NCBI GenBank assembly: GCA_903878415.1
Contig: CAIRHO010000029.1
Span: 1-43,325, forward strand
Direction: 5' to 3'
Source: an uncultured Actinomycetes bacterium
GTDB lineage: Bacteria; Actinomycetota; Actinomycetes; Nanopelagicales; Nanopelagicaceae
Length of the DNA: 43,325 nucleotides
Each line of letters opens with the position of its first letter. Position 1 is the stretch's first letter. Shown here piece after piece: positions 9,950 through 38,037 of the stretch. Below the pieces are notes generated by a model. The model saw only the letters and a list, made by a program, of their open reading frames with translations, had not been told where the DNA came from and did no database searches. Position numbers and translations under genes: made by a program.

Positions 9950-10495
9950 CTATACCGTCGCATCCTCAGGAGTACGACGAAGGTGCATAAATCCCATGAT
10001 TGAAAGAATCAAGAAGAGGATTCCTCCGATTAAACATGCATAGGTGCCATACATCGCGATCTGCCCGATCTGCCAGAATGCAAAAGCAAATCCGAGCATT
10101 CCGCGAAGAGTCTCGCCTCTGAATAGCGTTTGCACTTGGCCAGCAAGAGCTGCATCAGTGGGGTTTGCACGAGATAGTTCGCTAACTTGAGAATAGGTTT
10201 TCCCACCAGCTATTCCTTGCAGGTGAACTGCAACATATTTGTCAGCATAAGCTTTCGCTTGTTTTCCATTTGTTAATTGCAGGCCAGCATATTTCTGGAT
10301 ATCGGGAAATTTATCTGGGCTAAAGGCTGGTGACCCTGCTGCCGGGAAGAAAATCTTTTGTGCAGTGAGTTGATCTGTCACCTGGCTATTTGCGAATGTA
10401 TAACCCCAGTTCATGAGCCCGGCTGCAACAAGAAGTAATATTGCTAATCCGAATCCAAGCAAACTGGCAATTCTGTCGAAACTTTTACGCTTCAT
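9950..10495 (-). CDS. Membrane protein of unknown function (family often mis-labelled 'aromatic ring-opening dioxygenase LigA')
   Basis: The 181 residues form an N-terminal membrane helix (residues ~10–32), an extracytoplasmic region with a GGKTYSQV motif, and two closely spaced helices near 128–170. The arrangement and the H-x5-GGKTY pattern resemble an actinobacterial family often wrongly annotated as LigA dioxygenase; no catalytic motif for such an enzyme is present. The start has a GGAGAG ribosome binding site. An unusually long 5' leader with several helices (10537–10639) precedes it, which suggests controlled expression. Its function is unknown. It is convergent with ino1 and separated from the mini-LuxR gene by 223 bases. 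Confidence 0.7.
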   Translation of the reverse strand: MKRKSFDRIASLLGFGLAILLLVAAGLMNWGYTFANSQVTDQLTAQKIFFPAAGSPAFSPDKFPDIQKYAGLQLTNGKQAKAYADKYVAVHLQGIAGGKTYSQVSELSRANPTDAALAGQVQTLFRGETLRGMLGFAFAFWQIGQIAMYGTYACLIGGILFLILSIMGFMHLRRTPEDATV

Positions 10496-10536
10496 GATCT
10501 CTTCTCTCCAAAGTCTTTGTTTAGTTGTATTAAGTT

Positions 10537-10639
10537 GAAGGCTCTATTTCCTTCGTGCTAATCAAACCCGTTATTGATTAGTCGGGATTGTGAATGCACG
10601 AGTGCCACCCCCAAGTAATTTTTTGGGAGTGATGGCACT
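10537..10639 (-). ncRNA. Strongly structured 5' leader of the unknown membrane-protein gene; candidate new cis-regulatory RNA
   Basis: In the mRNA sense three elements follow one another. (1) 10639–10601: AGUGC/GCACU, a 3-base bulge, then 9 bp CACUCCCAA/UUGGGGGUG closing an AAAAUUAC loop. (2) 10600–10554: CGUGC/GCACG closes a domain with UAAUCA/UGAUUA inside; the apical loop has CGGG (10570–10567), which can pair with CCCG (10586–10583) in the 5' bulge, a pseudoknot. (3) 10554–10537: GAAGG/CCUUC. A TATTAT box at 10661–10656 would start transcription just upstream. No U-tract follows element 1, so it is not an ordinary terminator. This gene-free stretch (10496–10718) holds little else. I recognise no known family. 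Confidence 0.5.
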
Positions 10640-10718
10640 TACTGGTAGGTCACATATAATATTTTTAGGCGCTTTGATACTTTTGAAGTGGTTAAGTCTT
10701 GTAACTATCCCAAATTAG

Positions 10719-11060
10719 CTATTCAATATGACGAGAACATACCTGTTCGCCATTTGGTCCGAGAACCATGTGACCGCATGCAACATTCAATTTATCAAAA
10801 GCTTTATCACCAAAATGCGCACGATAAGCAAGTGCAATTAAAACTCTAATATTTATATCTGGCGCGGATTTAACTCCGAGGGCTTTAGACATTCTCGAAA
10901 CAGTATTCTCAACGACTTTCTCAGTATGCGCGGTCTCTCTAGCGATTGCTGAATTTGATAAGCCGTCACACAATAAACCCGCGACCAGGTGCTCGAAGGG
11001 GGTAAGTTCTCTAGTCAATATTGTCATGTGTTCCATGGTGGCTCTCCGTTGCTCATTCAT
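10719..11060 (-). CDS. Small LuxR/GerE-type helix-turn-helix protein with a C-terminal Cys/His tail
   Basis: A 113-residue protein that is essentially one GerE domain: LTPFEHLVAGLLCDGLSNSAIARET, the recognition helix VVENTVSRMSKALGV, then the dimerisation helix. There is no receiver or ligand domain. The C-terminal tail (residues 93–113) has C95, H97, C108 and H111, a CxH…CxxH arrangement that could bind zinc; this is seen in sequence but its role is inferred. The start at 11060 is the longest form; ATG at residue 9 or 12 is possible. TACAAC lies six bases before the start. It is divergent from the enoyl-CoA hydratase gene. Target genes are unknown; the divergent operon and the structured-leader gene downstream are candidates. 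Confidence 0.75.
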   Translation of the reverse strand: MNEQRRATMEHMTILTRELTPFEHLVAGLLCDGLSNSAIARETAHTEKVVENTVSRMSKALGVKSAPDINIRVLIALAYRAHFGDKAFDKLNVACGHMVLGPNGEQVCSRHIE

Positions 11061-11153: not shown

Positions 11154-11903
11154 GTGAGCGAGATACTGAGTTCGATTGTTGATGGAGTGCTAACACTCAC
11201 TTTAAATCGGCCAGAAAAGCAAAATGCGATTACGCGTGCCATGTATCAATCCCTAGCAAATCAAATTAATGAAGCTGCGAGGGATTTTGGGATCAGGGTT
11301 TTGGTTATTGCTGGCGAAGGAAAACACTTCACGGCCGGTAATGACATCGGAGATTTCTTTAACGATCCACCGCTAGAAGAGAACTCACCGGTGATGCAAT
11401 TTCTATCGGCAGTTCACAACTTCCCGAAACCAATAATTGCTTCCGTGCATGGAAATGCGGTTGGAATCGGAACTACGCTCTTACTTCATTGCGATTTAGT
11501 TGTATCTGCACCAGATACAAATTTTTCTATGCCTTTTGTAACTCTTGGTTTAGTCCCAGAGTTCGGCTCTAGTTATCTTTTTCCAAAACTTGTGGGGCAT
11601 CAACGCGCATCAAAAGTATTCTTGCTCGGCGAACCATTTGATTCTAAATTTGCACTTGAGGTTGGCCTAGTAGCCGAAATTTCAGAAACCTCGGATTTAG
11701 TTGCAGCGCAATACGCAACTGCAATTGCAGACCAGCCTCCCAGCGCAGTAATTCAAACTAAGGCGCTTTTGAAGAGCGGACACCATGATGCGGTTACAGC
11801 TGTGATGCGTGCTGAAGGCGAACTTTTTAAACTGGCTTTGCAATCCGATGAGGCCCAAGCCGCCTTTATGAAATTCTTAGCGAATAAAACAACGAAAAAA
11901 TAA
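11154..11903 (+). CDS. Enoyl-CoA hydratase/isomerase family protein
   Basis: Crotonase-fold enzyme of about 249 residues acting on CoA thioesters, probably fatty-acid or branched acyl oxidation. Visible are LTLNRPEKQNAITRAM, the oxyanion-hole segments HFTAGNDIGDF and GNAVGIGTTLLLHCDLV, and the LGLVPEFGSSYLFPKLVG block, where a Glu lies at the usual catalytic position. The second catalytic Glu common in true hydratases is less clear, so isomerase activity is possible. The GTG start fits the leaderless pattern. The next gene, an SDR with a strong ribosome binding site, follows after eight bases, so the two form a likely beta-oxidation-related operon. Confidence 0.87.
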   Translation: MSEILSSIVDGVLTLTLNRPEKQNAITRAMYQSLANQINEAARDFGIRVLVIAGEGKHFTAGNDIGDFFNDPPLEENSPVMQFLSAVHNFPKPIIASVHGNAVGIGTTLLLHCDLVVSAPDTNFSMPFVTLGLVPEFGSSYLFPKLVGHQRASKVFLLGEPFDSKFALEVGLVAEISETSDLVAAQYATAIADQPPSAVIQTKALLKSGHHDAVTAVMRAEGELFKLALQSDEAQAAFMKFLANKTTKK

Positions 11904-37796: not shown

Positions 37797-37850
37797 TGTG
37801 ATCTCTCCATTTGTTATGGGAGCCTCACGGAAGCGAAAAGTATTAACAAT

Positions 37851-38037
37851 TCCGCCCCGCAAACCTCGACGGGTGGTAGATATGTTTGAAACCAGGTAAT
37901 CCGACTTAGCGATTTAATCGCTTCACGGTTGCGGGTCAGCGTCGGATTTACACCGACTTCCCCTGAATTCAAACTATTAAGTTGTGTGCGAAGGCAACCA
38001 TACTGGGCATGCTTTCGCAATCAAGACTCGCAAATAT
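37851..38037 (-). promoter_or_regulatory. Cobalamin riboswitch controlling the ECF operon
   Basis: On the reverse strand the conserved core is present: AGGGGAAGUCGGUGUAAAUC (near 37964–37945), CCGACGCUGACCCGCAACCG, then AGUCGGAUUACCUGG (near 37906–37892), i.e. the B12 box region. UGCGAA…UUCGCA forms P2 and AUAUUUG/CAAACAUAU closes P1. CCCGCAA in loop L5 (37935–37929) is complementary to UUGCGGG in the downstream loop (near 37857–37863), the L5–L13 kissing contact. The position 55 bases before the GTG favours translational control of the ECF operon by cobalamin. Confidence 0.95.

Follow-up and report, generated by a model that had tools for sequence, protein, structure and literature searches.

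A putative LuxR-type promoter and a likely 5'-terminal mRNA hairpin upstream of a membrane-protein gene in the Nanopelagicaceae

Comparison of related leaders indicates that the region upstream of a membrane-protein gene in an uncultured member of the Nanopelagicaceae is probably a regulated promoter with LuxR-type operators, followed by a short structured 5' UTR that starts with a stem-loop. The region lies in a window of 43,325 nt (the whole stretch of DNA analysed; contig CAIRHO010000029.1), in which a 223-nt gap separates a helix-turn-helix ORF (11060-10719) from the membrane-protein ORF (10495-9950) on the minus strand. Three helices can be drawn in this gap, and the comparative signal beyond chance came from helix 1, which consists of operator palindromes, and helix 3, a covarying hairpin locked in position. 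Helix 1 exceeded chance because both of its arms belong to copies of the operator palindrome. The features, in window coordinates, are as follows.

9950-10495, minus strand: gene for a 181-aa membrane protein, the putative controlled gene (homologues in 174 of 296 family genomes)
10506-10509, minus strand: ribosome-binding site GGAG, from sequence (GGAGAG immediately 5' of the start codon in nearly all leaders)
10537-10554, minus strand: 5'-terminal hairpin GAAGG-AAATAGAG-CCTTC, helix 3 (stem-energy peak, compensatory changes, per-leader p 0.04)
10554, minus strand: predicted transcription start (+1), a conserved G 7 nt past the -10 hexamer, where the hairpins of relatives begin
10561-10566, minus strand: predicted -10 hexamer TTTGAT, inside helix 2 (TWTAMT in the ungapped alignment of 84 leaders)
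10599-10612, minus strand: putative proximal operator GGGGGTGGCACTCG, the 3' arm of helix 1 (score 19.6; each of the 84 leaders has the equivalent site)
10626-10639, minus strand: putative distal operator AGTGCCATCACTCC, the 5' arm of helix 1 (weight-matrix score 13.6; spaced 27 bp from its proximal partner)
10646-10654, minus strand: TGTGACCTA element upstream of the distal operator, a possible second-factor site (sequence comparison)
10719-11060, minus strand: gene for a 113-aa LuxR/GerE-type helix-turn-helix protein without a receiver domain, the candidate regulator (Pfam GerE, structure matches, 84-member alignment)

The preliminary description of this DNA had seen in the gap a ligand-binding RNA or a regulated leader, of which the regulated leader stands and the ligand-binding RNA does not, two thirds of the structure being DNA-like and upstream of the predicted start. 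The minus strand has all of the sequence elements that it listed, including the TATTAT box upstream (10661-10656) and the GGAG ribosome-binding site downstream (10509-10506), and its three helices can be drawn, but across 84 leaders they turned out to be different things. The folding energy of 10650-10496 (-40.4 vs. -27.5 kcal/mol, z -3.9) was below all 200 dinucleotide shuffles, and folding of the whole gap was less exceptional against shuffles (z -2.2). An Rfam cmscan of 10400-10800 returned no match even at E <= 5. The sole Rfam match in the window, at gathering and relaxed thresholds, was an adenosylcobalamin riboswitch (RF01482, 66.5 bits) at 37849-37988 on the minus strand. No Pfam family above cut-off and no NCBIfam or PDB match was found for the 181-aa membrane protein. 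Compared here were 84 oriented leaders, each with the regulator gene directly upstream and together representing 14 genera within the family; further leaders without an adjoining regulator gene were also extracted. Homologues of the membrane protein were found in 174 of the 296 family genomes and those of the helix-turn-helix protein in 210; Candidatus Nanopelagicaceae and Candidatus Planktophila are among the matching records.

The palindrome RGKGCTAGCACTC was found in all 84 leaders, and its G2, G4, C9 and C11 hardly vary. Every leader exceeded the 99th percentile of shuffled leaders when scored with a weight matrix that had been trained on these same leaders. Two sites were present in 57 leaders, spaced by 27 bp (45 leaders), 28 bp (3), 38 bp (8) or 48 bp (1), and a single site in the other 27. 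DNA-bound dimers require steps of about one helical turn. The arms of helix 1 (AGTGCCATCACTCCC/GGGGGTGGCACT, inside 10639-10601 on the minus strand) fall within this pair, and wherever two such palindromes follow one another a hairpin of half-sites arises automatically. Pairwise tests gave no convincing covariation, either for the half-sites (lowest p 0.04 in 16 tests) or for the inner flanks, and helix 1 as an RNA structure was rejected on these grounds; as a terminator of the upstream gene it was rejected for want of a U-tract. With a fixed palindrome, helical-turn spacing, a single copy in 27/84 leaders and no convincing covariation, helix 1 behaves as DNA. On the sequence evidence it is two copies of a DNA palindrome, a pair of operators, rather than the 14-bp bulged hairpin of a leader RNA that had been described. 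As in LuxR/GerE-type operators, the palindromes lie upstream of the promoter in phased steps of 27/28, 38 and 48 bp; literature searches on the palindrome returned nothing relevant. Outside the pair, the TGTGACCTA element was conserved as GTGAYCTA or, reversed, TCACA, and, counted from the proximal operator, columns -41 to -38 and -24 to -17 were weakly conserved. In leaders of genus g16 (e.g., G172:C1:884544-884581), an extra short palindrome of the ACCAATTTTGGT type recurs between the two operators.

In the ungapped alignment of the 84 leaders, a TWTAMT block occupied +33 to +38 from the proximal operator, exactly 32 nt past its end, with G favoured at +45 and GG at +29/+30 on the same count. 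No conserved block appeared in this alignment at the position expected of a -35 box. We read the TWTAMT block as a predicted -10 box with a start 7 nt downstream, and a start at 10554 would centre the operators near -52.5 and -79.5, positions that would be typical of activators. Helix 2 (CGTGC 10600-10596 with GCACG 10558-10554, minus strand) and its pseudoknot (CCCG 10586-10583 with CGGG 10570-10567, minus strand) together cover 10600-10554, where the spacer and the -10 region lie ahead of the predicted start. The CGUGC/GCACG domain with a CGGG/CCCG pseudoknot that had been proposed here did not survive comparison: in L002, the closest relative (96% protein identity), CGCAA/GCATG stands in place of the helix 2 arms, helix 2 and pseudoknot arms were also lost in L004, and stems starting in this region were at most slightly enriched over the 84 leaders. 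For helices 1 and 2 alike, covariation in relatives was unconvincing and the predicted start lies at 10554, so that both observations which the preliminary description had named as refuting its reading apply to them. The TATTAT box at 10661-10656, present also in L002, could drive a longer transcript in the genus of the window.

Stems were scanned by the position of their 5' base in the 84 leaders and compared with shuffles. Mean stem energy at offsets 0, +1 and +2 from the predicted start was -3.8, -3.6 and -2.5 kcal/mol, against about -0.3 kcal/mol in shuffled leaders, and the only other peaks were near position -85, at the operator pair, and near position -60, at the lone operator palindrome. 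Because only the operator and the -10 block had been used to place the start, its agreement with the position of the hairpin supports both. Individually, 63 of the 84 leaders had a hairpin at p <= 0.05; none did so in genus g7, where the hairpin is bulged and poorly handled by a simple stem search. Compensatory changes affected 4 of the 8 pairs of genus g2 and 6 of the 10 of g8/g15, more than nearly all shuffles and every slid version gave. Stem sequences differed completely between genera. The GAAGG/CCUUC helix of the preliminary description (GAAGG 10554-10550, CCTTC 10541-10537, minus strand) is thus the one helix to show covariation in relatives, and its stem peak falls at +1. The window's own copy is weak (5 bp, -4.5 kcal/mol, p 0.04) and its 75-nt leader, taken without relatives, is unimpressive (folding z -0.5). 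Measured from a start that is itself predicted, most of the 84 leaders nevertheless have a stem-loop at offsets 0 to +2, the extreme 5' end, and the comparison shows that a 5'-terminal mRNA hairpin of changing sequence has been kept across most of the 14 genera.

The 113-aa protein matched Pfam GerE just under the curated cut-off (E 6e-5), and its closest solved structures were the C-terminal domains of DevR/DosR and NarL; no receiver domain was found. Four residues (C31, C95, H97 and C108) were invariant in the 84 homologues and H111 was conserved in 74, forming a C-x-H...C-x-x-H tail, with C31 inside the helix-turn-helix. The structure model has a low-confidence beta-hairpin at 98-108. At a guess, the tail of this family-restricted LuxR-type protein might hold a metal or redox site.

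Across genomes, the presence of the operator tracked that of the regulator gene, which points to the neighbouring protein as the regulator. In genus g6 the membrane gene is present, and both the regulator ortholog and the palindrome are absent (best scores -5.6 and -4.0); these leaders keep a GAAGGAAAATCAACTCCTTC-type hairpin despite lacking the operator. In those g8 genomes in which the regulator gene is relocated, a palindrome lay 20-70 bp before that gene in 11/11 loci and mostly degenerate copies remained before the membrane gene. Where a genome had the regulator and no membrane gene, the operator behind the regulator gene was absent or a decaying remnant; one such remnant, of a GTGATCTA-operator-operator block, was seen downstream of the regulator gene in L054, in whose genome no membrane gene was found. 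This link consists of co-occurrence of operator and regulator gene, with g6 as the sole clean independent loss of the regulator. The strict tandem pattern occurred in 61 of the 296 genomes, nearly always at the membrane-protein locus, at a setting of one mismatch that misses degenerate pairs, the window's own included.

Further copies of the palindrome were observed. A strong copy (AGTGCTAACACTCA) at 11186-11199, some 125 bp before the regulator gene and also found in L002, L051, L052 and L053, sits in the start of a divergent enoyl-CoA hydratase ORF and may be autoregulatory or only coding sequence. At G165:C1:810724-811847 the tandem operator occurs twice, 1086 bp apart, in a genome where the membrane protein and the regulator each have two matches; this is a local duplication. 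With two mismatches allowed, the window's genome gave 103 matches to the single-site pattern against 49 for the control. Candidates for a wider regulon there, nrdR (L112) and a two-component pair (L111), were inspected and are unproven; the palindrome-like AGTGCTATCCCTCA upstream of nrdR (L112:747-760) follows GTGATCT and is a possible second target.

We weighed three other readings of the locus. The first joins the three helices and the pseudoknot into a single ligand-binding RNA, with transcription from the TATTAT box and control of the membrane gene; it would account for the low folding energy of 10650-10496 and for the box found shortly before the helices both in the window and in L002. 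Such a riboswitch-like leader is nonetheless highly improbable: helix 1 is impossible in the 27 single-site leaders and does not covary, the nearest relative lacks an intact helix 2, spacing shifts by helical turns, Rfam offers no match, and the -10 box and predicted start lie downstream of both helices. Considered as a structured RNA over its whole length, the leader had no known-family match and covariation in helix 3 only. A somewhat unlikely alternative retains the promoter architecture and assigns the palindromes to another regulator, or makes the neighbouring protein a repressor. Autorepression would be compatible with the site placed 20-70 bp before the moved regulator gene, and the conserved TGTGAYCTA/TCACA element points to a second factor; however, the operator occurs where the regulator gene does, tandem sites are hardly seen at other loci, and the operator position near -52.5 together with the lack of a -35 box favours activation over repression.

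The +1 hairpin might, in turn, be mainly a translational switch whose loop pairs with the ribosome-binding site until a signal or factor releases it. CUCC, complementary to GGAG, occurs in 13 of the 19 loops of g8 and g15 (L014, L022, L029, L061, L073, L076, L086, L087, L090, L091, L097, L099 and L101), but in none of the 65 loops elsewhere, including that of the window; the ribosome-binding site is constant and so offers no covariation, and shared descent may explain g8 and g15. We consider a switch as the hairpin's main role very unlikely, with translational control by loop pairing possible in g8 and g15.

Among known systems, the promoter reading has its nearest counterpart in DevR/DosR, LuxR/NarL-type activators that share the GerE-type helix-turn-helix and palindromic sites arranged in tandem ahead of the promoter. 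In contrast to these, the protein here lacks a receiver or sensor domain, carries a Cys/His tail and was found, among the genomes searched, only in this family; its palindrome differs from the DosR box. The half-site letters resemble those of the CIRCE/HrcA operator (TAGCACTC/GAGTGCTA). Here, however, the halves abut in one palindrome without an N9 spacer, pairs are 27/38/48 bp apart and the gene is not a chaperone gene; CIRCE/HrcA was rejected, the TTAGCACTC-N9-GAGTGCTAA inverted repeat being absent. For the hairpin there is precedent in E. coli and B. subtilis, where stem-loops at the 5' terminus impede decay that depends on the 5' end (review PMC3997798). In E. coli ompA and papA and B. subtilis aprE (PMC3997798), as here, the stem-loop lies at or next to the first transcribed nucleotide, and position is conserved rather than sequence. 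The present hairpin differs from these in that it is kept at a single locus from genus to genus and is tied to a dedicated operator, and a stabilising role is an analogy. In M. smegmatis, deleting the hairpins of one 5' UTR left mRNA half-life unaltered (PMC11728522).

In the model that we favour, a regulator of the LuxR/GerE type, for which the adjacent 113-aa protein is the most likely candidate, would bind one or two RGKGCTAGCACTC palindromes and help RNA polymerase at a promoter with a TWTAMT -10 box and no conserved -35 box. Transcription would start at about 10554, with a stem-loop beginning at the first mRNA nucleotide that would probably shield the mRNA from 5'-end-dependent decay; a stabilising role is our first choice because the position of the hairpin is conserved and its sequence is not. 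A bolder version, which we hold to be quite unlikely, is that a metal- or redox-sensing LuxR-type protein, by way of its C-x-H...C-x-x-H tail, controls one membrane protein as a family-wide unit, on a transcript selected for a +1 hairpin that in some genera also closes the ribosome-binding site by loop pairing, gating transcription and translation together.

What appeared to be a new riboswitch would thus be promoter DNA followed by a 5'-terminal hairpin. Selection for a hairpin at +1 appears visible across many genera, though the mycobacterial experiment found no stabilising effect of 5' hairpins. For abundant and hardly studied freshwater actinobacteria, the locus would provide a testable operator together with its candidate regulator.
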